From a bacterium (GTDB lineage: Bacteria; Myxococcota_A; Bradymonadia; UBA7976; UBA1532), in the NCBI GenBank assembly GCA_030426085.1, contig JAUHYW010000019.1, positions 1 to 64,000 on the forward strand: DNA of 64,000 bases, written 5' to 3'. The notes beneath the pieces are model-generated. The model was not told the DNA's origin. It searched no databases and saw only the letters and a program-made list of their open reading frames with translations. Made by a program: the position numbers and the translations under genes. Positions 43,220 through 51,251 of this stretch are shown here, one piece after another. Position 1 is the first letter of the stretch; every line of letters starts with the position of its first letter.

Positions 43220-43330
43220 GCGGGGGCATGAGATCCGCGGGGCCCCGCTTTTTCTGGGGGCGGCATGTCCCACGCCCGGGGTCCGCCGCGTCAGCCTCGA
43301 CATGACCCCGCTCGACTCAGGTCCCCCGCC

Positions 43331-43807
43331 GTGACGCTCTCGTCGGATGAGCTCACCGAGCTCTACACCCGCTACGGGCCCATCGCGCTGGCCCGCGCCC
43401 GGCGCCTGCTGGGCGACGAGGCGTTGGCCTGGGACATCACCCACGACGTCTTCGTGCGCCTCAGCGCCCGCCGCGCGCCGACCCGGCAGCCGGTGCGCTA
43501 CCTCTACCGGGCCATCACCCACGCCTGCATCGACGCCTGGCGCCGGGCCGAGGTCCGCCGCCCGGTCGAGCTCGACGCGGATCTGGCCGGGCCCGACCCG
43601 TTCGCGGCGACCCTCGCCCGCGACGTCCTGCGCGCGGTGTGGCACGAGCTCGACGAGACGGACCAGCAGATCGTGGTGCTGCGCTTCGTCGACGGGTTGC
43701 CGCAGAGCGAGATCGCCGAGATCCTGGGCGTGTGGCGGCGCACCGTCGGCCGACGGCTCAAACGCATCGAGGGCCGCGCCCGGGCGCTGGCCGAGGAGGG
43801 CCCATGA
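43331..43807 (+). CDS. ECF-type RNA polymerase sigma factor
   Basis: 158 residues from GTG 43331. Sigma region 2 is in LYTRYGPIALARARRLLGDEALAWDITHDVFVRL and region 4 in LDETDQQIVVLRFVDGLPQSEIAEILGVWRRTVGRRLKRI. Longer starts upstream add unrelated sequence. It overlaps the following zinc-finger gene by 4 bases (ATGA), the usual sigma/anti-sigma arrangement. Its regulon probably includes this operon, but no promoter pair could be defined. Confidence 0.92.
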   Translation: MTLSSDELTELYTRYGPIALARARRLLGDEALAWDITHDVFVRLSARRAPTRQPVRYLYRAITHACIDAWRRAEVRRPVELDADLAGPDPFAATLARDVLRAVWHELDETDQQIVVLRFVDGLPQSEIAEILGVWRRTVGRRLKRIEGRARALAEEGP

Positions 43808-44574
43808 CCCCGTCTCCGCACCTGTCGCGCTTCGCGCTCGATCGCTCGCTCGGCGGGTCGGCGTCACCCGAGGCCGACGCGCATGTGCAGCGCTGCGCCG
43901 AGTGTCGGGCCCGGCTCGACGCCCGGCGGCGGACGCTGGACGCCATCGCGGCCGAGCCGGCGTTCGCCCGTGGCCGGGCCCGGCTGCTCACCGCCACCCG
44001 ACCCCCGCCGGCGATCCGAAGGCGGTGGCGGTGGTCGGCGGGGGCCCTGGCCGTGGCGGCGGTCGCGGTCGTCGTGTGGGTCGGGCTGGGCGGCGGGCCG
44101 GGCGGTGATCCGGGCGGCGTCACGGCGCCCGGTCGGACCGGCGGCGACGGGCTGCGGGCCAAGGGCGACTTCGCGCTGTCGGTCGTGCGCACCGCCGATG
44201 GCCGGGCGACCGGGCCGTTCCCGCCCGGCGCCGAGGTCGAGCTGCGGGTCGGCGGCTGGCAGGCGGCGGCCCTGGTGCTGGCCCTCGACGACCAGGGCGG
44301 GGCGTCGGTGATCTGGCCGCCGGGCGGCACCGAGAGCGGGCTCATCACCGCCGACGGCCGGCTCGAGCCGCGGTTCCGGGTGACGCCGGGCGATCTGCTC
44401 CTGCTCAGCATCTTCTCGGCCACCCCGATCGACGCCGAGGCCGCCCGCCGGGCGCTGGCCCGCTCGGCCCGGGGCTGCGCCGGCCGGCCGACCCCGGCGT
44501 GCAGCGCGCCGCCGCGCCAGCCGGGGGAGCTGGGCCGGGCGTGGACCGCGCTGCGCACGGCGGATCCTCGATGA
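43804..44574 (+). CDS. Zinc-finger (zf-HC2-like) transmembrane protein, putative anti-sigma factor
   Basis: 256 residues. The N-terminal HVQRCAECRARLDARR is an HC2-type zinc finger, cytoplasmic in known anti-sigma factors. One membrane helix follows (WSAGALAVAAVAVVVWVGLG, about 76-95). The exterior domain of about 155 residues has VELRVGGWQAAALVLALDDQGGASVIWPPGG, resembling DUF4384 proteins, which often accompany caspase-like genes. It overlaps both neighbours by 4 bases. Likely role: hold the sigma factor until an envelope signal arrives. Confidence 0.8.
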   Translation: MTPSPHLSRFALDRSLGGSASPEADAHVQRCAECRARLDARRRTLDAIAAEPAFARGRARLLTATRPPPAIRRRWRWSAGALAVAAVAVVVWVGLGGGPGGDPGGVTAPGRTGGDGLRAKGDFALSVVRTADGRATGPFPPGAEVELRVGGWQAAALVLALDDQGGASVIWPPGGTESGLITADGRLEPRFRVTPGDLLLLSIFSATPIDAEAARRALARSARGCAGRPTPACSAPPRQPGELGRAWTALRTADPR

Positions 44575-46076
44575 AGAGCGTCGCCTGTCTGCTGCTCGTC
44601 GGCCTCGCGCTGAGCCTGCCGTCCCCGGCGTCGGCCCGGCGCTATCTGGTGGCCCTGGGCCAGAACGCCGGGGCGGGAGACGACCTGCCGCTGCGCTTCG
44701 CCGAGCGGGACGCCGAGCGGGTGGCCGAGGTGATGCTGACGGTCGGCGGGGTCGACGAAGGGGACGCGACCCTGCTCTTCGGGGCCGACGCCGAGCGGCT
44801 GGTCGAGGCGCTCGAGGCGGCGAGCCGGCGCCTGCGGGCGGCGGGCGACGCGCCGTTCGATCAGCTCGTGGTCTATGTCTCGGGCCACGCCGCCGACGGC
44901 ATGCTGCACCTCGACGGCACCCGCTACCCGATCGCCGCCCTGCGCGACTTCGTCGAGCGCGCCCCGGTGGGGCTGGCGATGCTGGTGCTCGACACCTGCG
45001 ACGCCGGCCGGCTGACCCGGCGCAAGGGGCTCGCGCCGCTGCCGGGGCCGGCGGTGCGCGTCGAGCGGCCCGACGCCGAGGGGCGGATCTACATCGCCGC
45101 GTCGGCGGTCGGCGAGGCGGCCTACGAGTCCGATCGGCTCGAGGGGGCCTTGTTCACCCATCACCTGACCACCGGCCTGCGGGGGGCGGCCGATCGGGAC
45201 GGCGACGGGCGGGTGACCCTCGACGAGGCGTTCGGCTATGCCTACGTCGGCACCCGGGCGTCGACCTTCGGCAGCCGCCGTCGGCAGACGCCGAGCTATG
45301 CGGTCGACCTGCGCGGCGAGGGCGCGGTGGTGCTCACCGAGACCGGGCGGGCGGCGGCCCGGCTGACCCTCGACGACGGGCGACCGGGCGAGTGGACGAT
45401 GCTGGCGACGGCCACCGGCGAGGGCCTGCGCCTGAGCAAAGGGGCCGCCCCCCTGGTGCTGGCGGTGGCCCCGGGGCGGTGGCGGGCGCGCACGACCCGC
45501 GACGGGCGGCCGGTGGAGGCCCGGGTCGAGGTGCCCGCCGGGGGCGAGGCGACGGTGCGCGCCGAGGCGCTGCGGCCGACGGCGTCCGACGCGCTGGCCA
45601 CCCGGGGGTCGGGCCGTCGGTGGTCGGTGGCGCTGGCCGCCGAGCTGGCCCCGAGCGCGGTCGACGGCGGCGCGGGCGCGGCGGCTACCGGCGGCGGGCT
45701 GACGCTGCGCCGGGTGGGCCTCGACGGCTGGGCTGCGGCCGATCTGGGGGTCCGGGTGAGCGCCGCCGCCGATGTGAGCCAGGTGGAGTACACCGCCGGG
45801 CTGGCCGGAGGTCGGGTGTGGTGGTTCGATCGCGCCGCGGCCCGGGCCGGCCTGCGGGCCGAGGCGGCGGCGGTGCACCAGCGCGGGGTCCCCGGCGGCG
45901 CTCGGTGGTCGGTGGTGCCCCGGGCGGGGGCCGAGGTGGGCCTCGACTGGCCGGTGCTCGAGCAGTGGTCGGTCATCGCCGAGGTCCGGGGCGGCGCTCA
46001 GCTCGTGCGCCGGGTCGACGGCTGGCGGATCGGGCCTCACGCCGTCGGCCGGCTGGGGGTCGCGTGGCGGCTGTGA
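44571..46076 (+). CDS. Secreted caspase-like (C14) peptidase with barrel-like C-terminus
   Basis: 501 residues; signal peptide MKSVACLLLVGLALSLPSPASA. The caspase fold at about 23-260 has the catalytic pair His106 (VVYVSGHAADG) and Cys143 (LVLDTCDAGRL). DRDGDGRVTLDEAF is an EF-hand-like calcium loop before the end of the domain. About 100 residues of beta-sandwich type follow. The last 140 residues alternate in the manner of an outer-membrane barrel and end GRLGVAWRL. The protein may be tethered in the outer membrane with the protease facing the periplasm. Substrate unknown. Start overlaps the previous stop. Confidence 0.85.
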   Translation: MKSVACLLLVGLALSLPSPASARRYLVALGQNAGAGDDLPLRFAERDAERVAEVMLTVGGVDEGDATLLFGADAERLVEALEAASRRLRAAGDAPFDQLVVYVSGHAADGMLHLDGTRYPIAALRDFVERAPVGLAMLVLDTCDAGRLTRRKGLAPLPGPAVRVERPDAEGRIYIAASAVGEAAYESDRLEGALFTHHLTTGLRGAADRDGDGRVTLDEAFGYAYVGTRASTFGSRRRQTPSYAVDLRGEGAVVLTETGRAAARLTLDDGRPGEWTMLATATGEGLRLSKGAAPLVLAVAPGRWRARTTRDGRPVEARVEVPAGGEATVRAEALRPTASDALATRGSGRRWSVALAAELAPSAVDGGAGAAATGGGLTLRRVGLDGWAAADLGVRVSAAADVSQVEYTAGLAGGRVWWFDRAAARAGLRAEAAAVHQRGVPGGARWSVVPRAGAEVGLDWPVLEQWSVIAEVRGGAQLVRRVDGWRIGPHAVGRLGVAWRL

Positions 46077-47512
46077 GGGGCGGTGGCATCTGGCGGCCGA
46101 TGCTCCTGGTCGGTCTCGCGTGGCTCGCCGGGTGCGACCCGCTGTACAGCGTCGACGATCTCGCCGACGGCGATGGCCGGGCCGACGCAGGGCCCGACGC
46201 CCGCCCGGGAGACCCGCTCGACGCCGGGCCCGATCCCGGCCCGCTGGCGCCGCTCGACCCCGCGCCGCTCGATTGCGCCCGCATCGCCGAGCGGCCCCCG
46301 ATGACCCCGCTCGGCCCCCACCCCCCATCGGCCCCGCTGGACGGGGTGTGCGCGCCGGGTGACCCGGGGCCGTCGCATTACACCTGGGCCGACCCCGACG
46401 GCCCCTACGCCGTGCATGTGATCGCCGTCGGCGAGGCCATCCCCGAGACCCCCGGCGGCGCGGTCGTCGTCCGGGTGCGGGCCACCGCCGCGCCGGCGGT
46501 GCTGGTGCTGGTGGCCGACAGCCCCACCGCGTGGGAGCTCGCACCCGACGCCGACGCCCGCGTCGCCGGGGTGATCGTCGCCGGACCCCAGCCGCGGGCC
46601 GTGCAGGGATCGCCGGTGGCGGTGCAGAGCCTCGACGGCGATCACTTCTGCGCGTTCGGCGCCGGCTGGGAGGCGCGGCATCAGGTCGACGACGGCGCGC
46701 ACCACACCATGATCACCGCCATCCGCGAGGCGCTCGGCCAGCGCGAGACCGCCTTTCAGGGCTGCGCCCGCGGGCGGCGCTTCACCGTGCCCCACAGCGA
46801 CAGCCCCGAGACCGAGCCTCCGCCGCTGGCGCCGATCGAGGCCGAGGCGGGCGAGGTGCTCGGGTGCGGCGACATCGCCCGGGAGTCGGTGCGGTGCATC
46901 CTCGCCGCGTACGAGGGGACCGACCTCATCGGCCTCGACACCGGGCGGACCTGCCCGATCGAGCGCATGGACCCCGGCACGCCGTACCTCGAGTCGATGG
47001 CCTGGCGCGGCGCGGCCCTGTGGCGCTGCGGCCCGTCGGGGTTGACCCGCCTGCGGCTCGACACCTTGAAGCGGGACGTGCCCGAGGTGCTGTGCGGGTG
47101 GCTCGTCGACGACGGTGACGGCTTCCTGGCCGCCGAGCCCGGCACCCCGCCCGATCGGGCGATCCAGCGCTTCGACGGCCCGGCCGATCTGATCGCGGGC
47201 CGGTCGTCGCGGGCCTTCGCCCCCGAGATCTCGCTGTCGGTCTTCGCCGCCCACGACGGCATCCTGTACGGGGCCCACTTCTCGACCGACCGCATCGAGC
47301 GCTTCGACCTCGCCGAGCGGCGGGTGCTCGCGCCGCTGATCCTCGAAGACTTCGACGCCCGGATCCACGGCTTCGACGTGCTGCCCGAGGGGGTGATGGT
47401 CCTGACCTCCGACACCTTGCACCGCTTCGACCGCGCGACCGGCGCCGCCCTCGACGCCCTGCCCTTCGGTCGGGACCAGGCCTTCTTCGGCCTCGTGTGC
47501 CAGTCGGACTGA
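46073..47512 (+). CDS. Lipoprotein, paralogue 1 of a tandem pair
   Basis: 479 residues from GTG 46073, overlapping the caspase stop by 4 bases; an ATG at 46100 is an alternative. Lipobox LAWLAGC. After an Asp/Gly/Pro linker the protein shares blocks with the gene at 47880: DGDHFCAFGAGWEARHQVDDGAHHTMI, IREALGQRETAFQGCARGRRFTVP and a C-terminal IERFDLAERRVLAPLILEDFDARIHGFDV. The last part looks like beta-propeller blades. Being coupled to the sigma/caspase genes, it is probably a partner or target of them. No family recognised. Confidence 0.75.
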   Translation: MRGGGIWRPMLLVGLAWLAGCDPLYSVDDLADGDGRADAGPDARPGDPLDAGPDPGPLAPLDPAPLDCARIAERPPMTPLGPHPPSAPLDGVCAPGDPGPSHYTWADPDGPYAVHVIAVGEAIPETPGGAVVVRVRATAAPAVLVLVADSPTAWELAPDADARVAGVIVAGPQPRAVQGSPVAVQSLDGDHFCAFGAGWEARHQVDDGAHHTMITAIREALGQRETAFQGCARGRRFTVPHSDSPETEPPPLAPIEAEAGEVLGCGDIARESVRCILAAYEGTDLIGLDTGRTCPIERMDPGTPYLESMAWRGAALWRCGPSGLTRLRLDTLKRDVPEVLCGWLVDDGDGFLAAEPGTPPDRAIQRFDGPADLIAGRSSRAFAPEISLSVFAAHDGILYGAHFSTDRIERFDLAERRVLAPLILEDFDARIHGFDVLPEGVMVLTSDTLHRFDRATGAALDALPFGRDQAFFGLVCQSD

Positions 47513-47528: not shown

Positions 47529-47761
47529 GGCTCCGTCAGGAAATTACTCGGGCTGCGGCCGCGATCTCGACCCCCATTCGCCGCTTTCCTCCTCGCCTGG
47601 TCTCCGCGCTGCGCGCCTCGACCCGGGCCTACGCCCCGTCGGGTCGTGGGCTTGACCCCCTCGCCGCACCTCTGGTGCGACTGCGTCGCCGGCTGTGGGG
47701 GCGCTGGCGACTGGGGGCCGACCTCACGCCCTCGCTGTCCGAGTAATTTTCTTCCGGAGCC
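47529..47761. mobile_element. 233-bp element with 23-bp terminal inverted repeats (MITE-like)
   Basis: The 367-base gap 47513-47879 is mostly filled by this element. Left end 47529-47551 (starts GGCTCCGTCAGG, ends ATTACTCGG) and right end 47739-47761 pair at 20 of 23 positions. It carries no gene. Both flanks have TTT, which may be a 3-bp target duplication but is too short to be sure. It separates the two paralogous lipoprotein genes. Confidence 0.6.
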
Positions 47762-47879
47762 TTTCTGCCGGGGGCGATGTCCCATCTCGGGCGGGTGATC
47801 CGTCGAACCAGACAGAGCGCGCGGTCGAGAGTGATGGCCGCGCACCCATCGCCGCGATCCCATCAAGCGAGGACGAAGC

Positions 47880-49463
47880 ATGTTCCCGAGACACCCACTC
47901 ATGGGTCTGGCCGTCGTGTGCCTGGCCCTGACCGCCTGCAACATCGACCTGGGCGGCCTGCCCGACCCCGGCGCCGACGCGCCCGCCGACCCGGGTGAGG
48001 ACCCGATGGCGCCGGATGCGCCCGACGAGCCCGACGCGCCCGAAGAGCCCGACGCGCCCGAAGAGCCCGACGCGCCCGAAGAGCCCGACGCGCCCGAAGA
48101 GCCCGAAGAGCCCGCCGACTGCGCCCCGATCGACCCGCCGGCCATCGCCCAGGCCGACATCGAGCCCATCGATCCGCTGCCCGCCGTCGACTGCGACGAG
48201 ATGCTCGAGCCCATCCGCCCCTATCGCCACGGGCCCCACCCGCCCTCGATCCCGCTCGACGCCGCCTGCGGTGATCGGGTCTCGAACTACACCATCGCCG
48301 GCGCCGCCGACGACGCGCCCTACGAGGTCCACGTCGTCAGCGTCTACGAGGGCCGCATCGACCTGCCCGGTCTGGTCGGCATCGGCGGGGCCGAGGTCGT
48401 CATCGAGCGCACCGCCCGGCCGGTGGTGCTGGTGCTGACGGCCAACGATCCGGTGCACTGGCGCCTGCGCCCGACGGCCGACGCGCGCATCGCGGGGGTG
48501 CTCGTGGCCGGCGACGACGGCCAGCAGATCGAGGGGTCCCCGGTGCCGGCCCAGCGCCTCGAGCGGGACCACTTCTGCGCGGTGGGCTACGGCTGGGAGG
48601 TGGACCACAACACCGGCGGCGGCGACCACCGCAGCATGATCCGCGGCATCCGGGCCGCGCTGGGCCAGACCGAGAGCAGCTTTCAGGGGTGCTATGGCGG
48701 CCAGCAGTTCACCGTGCCCTACGCCGCGTGCCCCGAGACCGAGGCCGAAGAGCCGGCGGCGCTCGACGAGGGCCTGACCCCGGCCGACGCCGACCTCGGG
48801 GAGTGCGCCTTCATGGCCCAGGAGTCGCTCTACTGCGCCACCAACAGCCAGCGGGGGCTCGAGCTCCTCGGCCTCGACACCGGCAGCCGCTGCGTGGTCG
48901 GTCCGGCCGCGGGCTCGATGTCGACGCTGACCTGGTTCGGGGACGCGATCTACGCCTGCGACGAGACCGGCCTGACCCGCTTCCGCTTCGACCTCGGCGC
49001 CTGGGAGCCCCTCGAGGTGCCCTGCGCGAGCGTGGCGGCCGACGGCGGCGACCTGCTCGTCAGCATCGTCGGCCATCGCTTCGACCTCGACCTCATGCGG
49101 CTGGGCAACGTCTTCCGCTACGCCGGCGCGGCCGGGCTGCTCGCGGGGCAGGTGCTCGAGCAGTTCGACCCCGGCGTGCTCGTCGAGCGCCTGGACGTCG
49201 ACCGGGGCATCCTCTACAGCGCGCGGCACGCCACCGACCACCTCGAGCGCTTCGATCTGGACCGGGGCGTCGATCTGGGGCCGGTGATGCTCGAAGGCTA
49301 CGACGATTGGATCCACGGCATGGACGTCATCGACGGGCAGATCGTGGTGCAGGGCCGCGCGGGCATCTACATCTTCGACGCCGACGACGGCACCCGCCTG
49401 GCCGACTTCGCGATGCAGCGGGTCATGCACATGGGGCTGGCCTGCGCCGCCGCCGAGCCCTGA
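47880..49463 (+). CDS. Lipoprotein, paralogue 2 of a tandem pair
   Basis: 527 residues with signal peptide MFPRHPLMGLAVVCLALTAC (lipobox). An unusually regular DAPEEP repeat linker follows (residues about 50-75). The body repeats the blocks of the gene at 46073: ERDHFCAVGYGWEVDHNTGGG, IRAALGQTESSFQGCYGGQQFTVP and LERFDLDRGVDLGPVMLEGYDDWIHGMDV. Conserved cysteines suggest disulfides and a periplasmic or surface location. It is outside the overlapping operon and may have its own promoter. Function unknown. Confidence 0.75.
   Translation: MFPRHPLMGLAVVCLALTACNIDLGGLPDPGADAPADPGEDPMAPDAPDEPDAPEEPDAPEEPDAPEEPDAPEEPEEPADCAPIDPPAIAQADIEPIDPLPAVDCDEMLEPIRPYRHGPHPPSIPLDAACGDRVSNYTIAGAADDAPYEVHVVSVYEGRIDLPGLVGIGGAEVVIERTARPVVLVLTANDPVHWRLRPTADARIAGVLVAGDDGQQIEGSPVPAQRLERDHFCAVGYGWEVDHNTGGGDHRSMIRGIRAALGQTESSFQGCYGGQQFTVPYAACPETEAEEPAALDEGLTPADADLGECAFMAQESLYCATNSQRGLELLGLDTGSRCVVGPAAGSMSTLTWFGDAIYACDETGLTRFRFDLGAWEPLEVPCASVAADGGDLLVSIVGHRFDLDLMRLGNVFRYAGAAGLLAGQVLEQFDPGVLVERLDVDRGILYSARHATDHLERFDLDRGVDLGPVMLEGYDDWIHGMDVIDGQIVVQGRAGIYIFDADDGTRLADFAMQRVMHMGLACAAAEP
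48030..48101 (+). repeat. Four perfect 18-bp tandem repeats in a coding sequence
   Basis: CCCGACGCGCCCGAAGAG repeats four times without change and encodes PDAPEE units of the lipoprotein linker. In-frame slippage would change linker length. Confidence 0.9.
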
Positions 49464-49652: not shown

Positions 49653-51251
49653 TCACCCGTCCAGCATCGTGCGCAGGTGCTTGGCGTCCCGGGCCACCCG
49701 CAGCGCGGCCTCGCGGCTCAGGTCGCCCTGGCGCACCAGCTCGGCGAGGCTGGTGTCGAATGGCAGCATGCCATCCTTGCGCCCGCTCTGGATCGCGGTC
49801 GTGAAGTGATGGGTCCGTCGCTCGCGGATCATATTGGCGATGGCATAGTTGGCCCGCACGATCTCGACCACCGGCACCCGGCTGCTGCCATCGTGGGTCG
49901 GCAGGAGCCTCTGGGTCACCACCGCCCGCAGGACGTCGGCCACCTGCATCCGGATCTGCTGCTGCTGGTGCTCGGGGAAGATGTCGATCATCCGGTCGAT
50001 CGCCTGGCTGGCGCTGCCGCTGTGCAGCGTCGAGAGCACCAGGTGGCCGGTCTCGGCGGCGGTGATGGCGGCGGCGATGGTCTCGAGATCCCGCATCTCG
50101 CCGACGAGGATGACGTCCGGCGCCTCGCGCAGGCCGTCGCGCAGGCCGGCGGCGAACGAGGTGACGTGCACCCCCACCTCGCGCTGGTGGATGATGCTCT
50201 GCTTGTCTTCGAACAGGTACTCGATGGGGTCTTCGAGGGTCAGGATGTGCCGCCGGTGGTGGGCGTTGATGTGCTCGACGAGCGCCGAGAGCGTCGTCGA
50301 CTTGCCCGAGCCGGTGGGGCCGCAGACCATCACCAGCCCGTAGGGGAACTCGCCCAGCTCGGCGATGGCCTCGGGCAGCCGCAGCTCGCCGAGGCCGGGC
50401 ACCTCGCCCCACACCGGGCGGAAGGCGGCCGCCAGCCCGCTGATGGTGCGGAAGACGTTGACCCGGAACCGATGGCGGTCGGCCCCGTCGGCCGGCAGCT
50501 CGAAGCCGAGGTCGACGCTGCCTTCCTCTTCGAGCCGGGCCTTGCGGGCGGGGGTCATCATGTCGCCGAGGGTCTCGAGCAGGGCCTTCTCGCGCACGGT
50601 GTGCCCGGTCACCGCGCGGTAGTCGCCGATCTTGCGCACCCGGGGGTCGCGGCCGGTGGAGAGCACGAGGTCCGACGCCCGCTCGAGCATCATCAGGCGC
50701 AGCATGTCGGTCAGCGTGCGGCACTGGCGGAAGCGGGCCAGCCACGGGGGCTCGTCGATGGCTTGCAGGCTCTCGTCTTCCCGGGCGGGCGCGCTCGGCG
50801 GGCGGGCGCGGGCCGACGCGACGGGGGGCACGACGCCCGAGGCCCGGGGCGGCGGCCCGGCGACCTCCGGCTCGGGTTCGGGCGCCTCGGTCCTGATCCG
50901 GGGCGCGGGGATCCGGGGCGCGGGGCGTGATCCCTTGCCCGGCGACCGCTTCCCGGTCGGGCGGAAGGCGACCGCCATGCCTTCGGGCAGCCGGCGCACC
51001 CGGTATTGGAAGCGCCCCGACTCGTGCACGTAGACCCCGTCCACCTGCCCCCGGGCGACGAGCGCGGCGAGCTGGTCGGCGTCGACGACGGCGTCCATGA
51101 GCTGGGACAGCGCGGCCTGGCTGAGCGGGCCCCCGTCCAGCGCCCGCGGCTCGCCGCCTTTGAACAGCAGCGGCGGCTGCCCCGGCCGGAACTGCAGCGA
51201 GTCGGCCCCGGCGCCGGTCAGCGTGCGCAGCATCTCGGTCAGGCTGAGCAT
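49653..51251 (-). CDS. PilT/PilU-type pilus retraction ATPase with duplicated N-terminal domain
   Basis: 532 residues. The ATPase core has Walker A GPTGSGKS at 311-318, LTLEDPIEYLFEDKQSIIHQREVG (Asp box), GEMRDLETI (Walker B) and AAETGHLVLSTLHSG (His box). Residues 175-280 are the usual PilT N-terminal domain. Residues 4-98 look like a second, diverged copy (SLTEMLRTL... AVAFRP against TLTDMLRLM... AAAFRP), joined by a Pro-rich linker. Normal PilT is about 350-380 residues. It would drive pilus retraction for twitching; no other pilus genes are nearby. Confidence 0.88.
   Translation of the reverse strand: MLSLTEMLRTLTGAGADSLQFRPGQPPLLFKGGEPRALDGGPLSQAALSQLMDAVVDADQLAALVARGQVDGVYVHESGRFQYRVRRLPEGMAVAFRPTGKRSPGKGSRPAPRIPAPRIRTEAPEPEPEVAGPPPRASGVVPPVASARARPPSAPAREDESLQAIDEPPWLARFRQCRTLTDMLRLMMLERASDLVLSTGRDPRVRKIGDYRAVTGHTVREKALLETLGDMMTPARKARLEEEGSVDLGFELPADGADRHRFRVNVFRTISGLAAAFRPVWGEVPGLGELRLPEAIAELGEFPYGLVMVCGPTGSGKSTTLSALVEHINAHHRRHILTLEDPIEYLFEDKQSIIHQREVGVHVTSFAAGLRDGLREAPDVILVGEMRDLETIAAAITAAETGHLVLSTLHSGSASQAIDRMIDIFPEHQQQQIRMQVADVLRAVVTQRLLPTHDGSSRVPVVEIVRANYAIANMIRERRTHHFTTAIQSGRKDGMLPFDTSLAELVRQGDLSREAALRVARDAKHLRTMLDG

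Follow-up and report, generated by a model that had tools for sequence, protein, structure and literature searches.

What is a caspase for when it is encoded in one operon with a sigma factor and an anti-sigma factor? The question is raised by a locus in a stretch of 64,000 nucleotides from a Bradymonadia genome (assembly GCA_030426085.1, contig JAUHYW010000019.1, positions 1 to 64,000), which we call the window. To our knowledge, few bacterial caspase homologues have a known function; the usual guess is death or defence. The original prediction for the locus was an envelope-stress or self-proteolysis module. Envelope signalling turned out to be the best reading of the data, and we found no support for self-proteolysis in the sense of cell death. 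More specifically, the module may regulate itself and signal from the envelope, with the caspase as the protease that makes the site-1 cut in the anti-sigma factor, a proposal that we give an even chance of being correct. The anatomy of the module is well supported by computation, and it is from this anatomy that we infer cleavage of the anti-sigma factor.

Four Overlapping Genes

All four genes lie on the forward strand. The first (43331..43807, 158 aa) encodes a sigma factor that matches TIGR02937 (6.1e-20) and the Pfam families Sigma70_r2 (6.5e-9) and r4_2 (2.6e-10) in profile searches; with sigma2, sigma4 and no further domains, it is of the ECF type. The genes for a class I zinc anti-sigma factor (43804..44574), a caspase (44571..46076) and a 479-aa lipoprotein with the lipobox LAGC (46073..47512) follow. 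At each of the three junctions, the start codon overlaps the preceding stop codon by 4 bases. Coordinates and junctions had been predicted exactly to the base, and the pair of an ECF sigma factor with a zinc-finger membrane protein and the lipoprotein as fourth gene were also correctly recognized.

A 233-bp intergenic repeat (47529-47761) with terminal inverted arms of about 56 bp and strong folding (z -5.9) is found in at least nine near-full-length copies in the genome (94-100% identity), and the sister genome has a relative. The repeat looks like a MITE- or REP-like element. A gene for a PilT-like ATPase (49653-51251, reverse strand) adjoins the module on the opposite strand.

The Module Is Widespread in Myxococcota and Inherited as a Unit

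The set does not stand alone. It represents a family found throughout the Myxococcota, including Myxococcus xanthus (L048), with five caspases of the module kind in the source genome and ten caspase matches, one of them with an internal stop, in the sister genome. A profile of the anti-sigma factor gave five strong matches in the source genome, in the same five places as the caspases. Scanning 84,980 species genomes with a caspase pattern identified 375 relatives. The 80 that were kept are mostly from Myxococcota; isolated loci carry the labels Gemmatimonadaceae and Latescibacterota.

Gene order is conserved in these relatives, as the original prediction required of a genuine module. Among 95 unique caspases, for which the caspase sequence was the sole criterion of retrieval, 86 have an anti-sigma gene upstream, and likewise 86 have an upstream sigma gene. 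For the others, anti-sigma and sigma genes are partly present in other orientation; three family caspases (L062, L064 and L065) are without an anti-sigma gene nearby. The commonest spacing at both junctions is again the 4-base overlap (57/82 and 49/83 loci), which together with the upstream pairing shows that the arrangement is more than chance.

Co-occurrence was also evident at the level of genomes. Among 237 Myxococcota genomes, 75 contain the caspase, 75 the anti-sigma factor and 72 both (24 expected; P = 5e-53), with per-genome counts that are lower bounds, because few candidates were scored. When source and sister genome were compared, the sigma factor, anti-sigma factor and caspase of four modules each picked the same partner module; the fifth module has no counterpart in the sister genome. 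Distance matrices for the three proteins from 84 loci correlate with r values of 0.86-0.88, and 0/2000 permutations reached such correlation. Sigma factor, anti-sigma factor and caspase are inherited as a unit.

This degree of coupling bears on a different explanation, in which the caspase would be made under control of the sigma factor, not activate it, and would process proteins of the envelope or surface during stress, while another site-1 protease cuts the anti-sigma factor, and a motif common to the two proteins (R-x-K-G, see below) is structural in both. One-to-one pairing of caspase and anti-sigma factor and matched phylogeny across paralogues exceed the needs of a target gene, and we consider this explanation rather unlikely.

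The Caspase Is Predicted to Be Anchored on an Outer-Membrane Barrel

The window caspase alone matches Peptidase_C14 with an E-value of 2.4e-4, and 44/45 proteins of the family match. His106 and Cys143, originally described as intact, are invariant in all 45 caspases, and the family alignment has no variation in the catalytic Ser-x-His and Asp-x-Cys. The AlphaFold2 model (45 sequences, pLDDT 90.2) consists of a signal helix, the caspase domain (24-257), a beta-sandwich (264-330) and then eight strands of 12-18 residues (350-500). Foldseek related the caspase domain to MALT1, caspases 6 and 7 and metacaspases, and VIA-align gave a Z of 21.9 to metacaspase-4 and caspase-7. For the tail, Foldseek returned OmpA (1bxw, 8e-7), NspA (1e-6) and also Ail. 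Model and fold search together predict that this tail, noted earlier as barrel-like, is a complete 8-stranded OmpA-like outer-membrane barrel.

The N-terminus is signal-peptide-like in 42/45 family members. The C-terminal residue is F, W or L in just 40/45, so the textbook barrel end is not universal. A domain that precedes an even-stranded outer-membrane barrel is expected in the periplasm. The caspase domain is predicted to be located there, anchored on the barrel; signal peptide and barrel agree, by prediction, with the secretion that had been proposed. In L010 and L129 (fifth module), the tail has a VKGVQLGGV-type repeat before the last strands, unlike the other copies.

A periplasmic caspase anchored at the outer membrane would sit away from cytoplasmic targets. 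This argues against a self-proteolysis or programmed death module, as do the five copies in the source genome and about ten in the sister genome. Caspase homology, and nothing else, speaks for such a module, which we regard as highly improbable.

Three acidic residues of the caspase are conserved, Asp141 and Glu182 without exception (45/45) and Asp47 in 43/45. The P1-Arg of MALT1 substrates is held by Asp365, Asp462 and Glu500 (PMC4626109), which D47, D141 and E182 match by position. This match was drawn by eye, following the succession of elements along the chain; a profile alignment that includes metacaspases spans the first part only. Bacterial orthocaspases cleave after Arg or Lys in P1 (PMC7475262), and the conserved acidic S1 residues fit the Arg/Lys cleavage to be expected of the module caspase.

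Assignment to the EACC1-associated caspases (NF047832) was rejected (48.6 bits versus a curated 140 bits), and a CHAT-type caspase system was likewise set aside.

The Anti-Sigma Factor and Caspase Have a Motif in Common

The anti-sigma factor carries the zinc motif H27-x3-C31-x2-C34 in an N-terminal helical domain, and has one transmembrane helix. The ligands H27, C31 and C34 are kept in 46, 48 and 48 of 53 anti-sigmas, and 26/53 match zf-HC2 (PF13490). Judged by sequence, the window protein is a class I zinc anti-sigma factor, with putative sigma binding and inhibition. In its model (pLDDT 85.6), the helical zinc domain is followed by a membrane helix (76-95), a linker that is disordered (96-118, pLDDT<50), and a beta-sandwich that is predicted to be periplasmic. 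Fold searches with this exterior part gave beta-sandwich matches, all weak. DUF4384 (PF14326) is matched by 36/53 anti-sigma relatives (best 2.4e-8) and not by the window protein itself. With PF14326 alone, 0/5 module anti-sigmas of the source genome were found, so the Pfam model understates the family, and we call the domain DUF4384-like.

Fusions of orthocaspases with DUF4384 are known from 23 cyanobacterial proteins (PMC8283722), which indicates that the two domains belong together. L174 and L178 contain a DUF4384 protein and a caspase in one locus, with the caspase loop SGTATRG that is without K-G; these loci appear to be a different Myxococcota arrangement of DUF4384 and caspase.

In the anti-sigma factor, the disordered juxtamembrane linker ends with R118-A-K120-G121 (44155..44166, forward strand), the predicted cleavage site. 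The caspase has R150-R-K152-G153 (45018..45029, forward strand) behind the catalytic Cys143, a predicted site of self-cleavage or self-docking. Conservation is high in both proteins. Lys120 (52/53), Gly121 (51/53) and Arg118 (48/53) are among the best conserved anti-sigma residues, Lys120 even above the zinc ligands; two module anti-sigmas, L179 (RGD) and L186 (RLKAG), lack KG. The caspase K and G are present in 45/45 and R150 in 39/45, at a distance of 7-10 residues behind Cys143, and residues 156-165, just after the motif, have pLDDT<50. Human caspases are activated by a cut in a comparable position after the Cys.

In the source genome, K-G was absent from four other caspases (four further ones are outside the scan), and R-x-K-G from five other Hx3Cx2C proteins (two of these entries are the same gene). 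The corresponding place of six DUF4384 proteins from outside the module also lacks R-x-K-G, and two caspases that share a locus with other DUF4384 proteins lack K-G (counts are for loci read in frame). The simplest reading is that R-x-K-G would serve as a single recognition sequence, both in cis and in trans. K-G may also be structural, or in the caspase a subfamily signature that would look alike. The anti-sigma K-G is at a near-fixed distance to the DUF4384 core and at a variable distance to the transmembrane helix. Such a fixed position relative to the domain core would suit the explanation of the caspase as sigma output; absence of the motif from non-module DUF4384 domains and caspases, and its position in the AlphaFold models, bordering disordered residues in both proteins, count against it.

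A motif common to both proteins would also be consistent with control in the reverse direction. The periplasmic domain of the anti-sigma factor, with R-x-K-G as pseudo-substrate, would fill the active site of the caspase and keep it off, and release would be coupled to sigma activation. Alternatively, the caspase domain would shield the anti-sigma factor from cleavage, for which there is a precedent, as the signalling domain of the outer-membrane protein FoxA protects the anti-sigma factor FoxR from proteolysis (PMC11637429). We think this quite unlikely, since a pure binder would not need invariant catalytic residues, and a basic residue with Gly after it, placed in a disordered linker, resembles a substrate more closely than it does an inhibitor.

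A Probable Promoter Motif Connects the Operon with Lipoprotein Genes

TGTCCCA-N16-CGTC upstream of the sigma operon (43266..43292, forward strand) is a predicted ECF promoter and suggests autoregulation. A second copy (47778..47804, forward strand) lies upstream of a second lipoprotein gene (47880..49463, forward strand). The box was spotted first in the window and afterwards tested on other loci, where TGTCCCA-N16-[CT]GTC was found upstream of the sigma gene in 18/82 module loci (shuffled mean 0.025), always with a spacer of 16 and never with one of 11-15 or 17-23. Ten of the 18 loci are closely related and of Corallococcus type, so that there were fewer than 18 independent events; the remaining ones include Myxococcus, Pyxidicoccus, the sister genome and other Myxococcaceae. 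As the motif is present in just 18/82 loci, other subgroups must use other sequences. No third site was found in the 1.65 Mb (16%) of the source genome that were scanned. GGAAC-type ECF promoters were not enriched upstream of the sigma genes, and a consensus search of the region gave no sigma-70-like promoters and no terminators. The motif, which we take to resemble the ECF41 type TGTCACA-N16-CGTC, is probably the promoter of the module sigma factor.

A downstream lipoprotein gene is present in 43/90 loci, versus 4% at random positions, and is the least constant part of the module. In the ten Corallococcus-type loci, a divergent lipoprotein gene has this promoter motif in front of it; L050 likewise has a second motif copy before a lipoprotein gene. 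These lipoproteins start with GCFDPLYE, similar to GCDPLYS of the window lipoprotein. Such motif-preceded genes outside the operon suggest that the lipoprotein is part of the module even there. The window lipoprotein has an ortholog in the sister genome (L041, 46% identical). The second lipoprotein is its paralogue (40% identity) and a predicted regulon member; the shared promoter motif suggests that the module extends to its gene.

Behind its lipid anchor, the second lipoprotein has Pro-Asp-Ala-Pro-Glu-Glu-type repeats. In the sister genome, a second motif precedes a gene whose 560-aa product is secreted but no lipoprotein (L041 8070), as a target or by chance.

Operon structure and an autoregulatory promoter would suit any target of the sigma factor, and hence also a caspase that is mere output. 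The promoter targets that were found, the operon itself and lipoproteins, are a further argument against a death module.

Proposed Mechanism

The common predicted compartment, paired inheritance, a basic motif in a flexible region and the S1 acids lead us to judge the site-1 protease model most likely. According to this model, the inner-membrane zinc anti-sigma factor would hold the ECF sigma factor, with its outer DUF4384-like domain on a flexible linker. An envelope signal, for which the barrel, the DUF4384 domain and the lipoprotein are possible sensors, would activate the caspase; in this step, the R-x-K-G loop that follows the catalytic Cys would probably be cut or released by the caspase itself. 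Active caspase would then cut the anti-sigma factor at the juxtamembrane R-x-K-G, after R or K (site-1 cleavage), and a site-2 protease (M50) and cytoplasmic proteases would free the sigma factor. Finally, the freed sigma factor would transcribe its own operon and lipoprotein genes via TGTCCCA-N16-[CT]GTC. What we infer beyond the anatomy is that cleavage takes place and where, which signal starts it, in what order the events occur, and what the lipoprotein does.

Candidate M50 site-2 proteases are present in the source genome and also in every control genome, so their presence is what the model needs but not evidence for it. The caspase would have to bridge the distance from the outer to the inner membrane, which beta-sandwich and linker may span. 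Other points that count against the model are the family caspases with no nearby anti-sigma gene, the module anti-sigmas that lack KG, the barrels whose end departs from the textbook form, and the presence of the promoter motif in just 18/82 loci. In a more general form, outer-membrane-anchored caspases would be dedicated self-processing site-1 proteases of a large Myxococcota sigma/anti-sigma family, with one R-x-K-G motif common to enzyme and substrate, a form of cell-surface signalling whose outer-membrane partner carries its own protease. We put this forward tentatively, with a probability slightly short of even.

Comparison with Known Systems

FecA/FecR/FecI and FoxA/FoxR/FoxI resemble the module in an outer-membrane barrel with a periplasmic domain, an inner-membrane anti-sigma factor, an ECF sigma factor and autoregulation. 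In contrast to FecA and FoxA, the module barrel is 8-stranded and not a TonB-dependent receptor, a caspase forms the periplasmic domain, and a DUF4384-like domain is part of the anti-sigma factor. A TonB-dependent transducer (22-strand receptor, plug and signalling domain) was rejected as the identity of the protein, because an 8-strand barrel and a caspase are predicted instead. With the RseA/DegS/RseP pathway of sigma-E, the module would have in common, as proposed here, a periplasmic site-1 cut of an inner-membrane anti-sigma factor followed by M50 site 2; it differs in a caspase that is encoded with its own anti-sigma factor, anchored at the outer membrane, and found in many paralogous sets.

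A caspase-like protease, an anti-sigma factor and an ECF sigma factor also occur together in type III-E CRISPR (Csx29/Csx30/CASP-sigma), where cleavage of a flexible loop by the caspase-like protease relieves anti-sigma inhibition (PMC10028731). The type III-E protease is TPR-CHAT, works with Cas7-11 and is activated by target RNA inside the cell, whereas the module caspase is of the C14 kind, secreted and attached to an outer-membrane barrel, and its anti-sigma factor is a membrane protein. Identity with the type III-E protease was rejected, as the window caspase has a signal peptide, no TPR, and C14 plus barrel. Orthocaspases, metacaspases and MALT1 are like the module caspase in fold, His/Cys dyad, acidic S1 and expected Arg/Lys in P1, but differ from it by the absence of the outer-membrane barrel tail and of T-R-x-K-G behind the catalytic Cys. 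ECF54 sigma factors have proteases, including CHAT, in their neighbourhood like the module; unlike the module, they have no anti-sigma factor, and proteolysis of the sigma factor itself has been proposed (PMC8999054).

Protease-controlled anti-sigma factors, signalling from the outer membrane to sigma factors, and the action of a caspase-like protease on an anti-sigma factor (PMC10028731) are each already known singly. The pairing of an outer-membrane barrel caspase with a membrane anti-sigma factor was not found in the literature searched and is new relative to it. In searchable full text there is no description of a caspase with a sigma/anti-sigma set, although the main ECF reclassification and Calp papers might mention it.

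Implications

For a whole family of caspases, there is now a candidate substrate with a candidate cleavage motif, as well as a compartment and a read-out at the level of transcription. Since the family includes the tractable Myxococcus xanthus, caspase function is directly testable. If the proposal is true, caspases would be envelope sensors in Myxococcus relatives and not only death enzymes, and there would be a new route for an outer-membrane signal to RNA polymerase. Caspase-controlled sigma factors, so far from CRISPR type III-E, would then be linked to the cell envelope.
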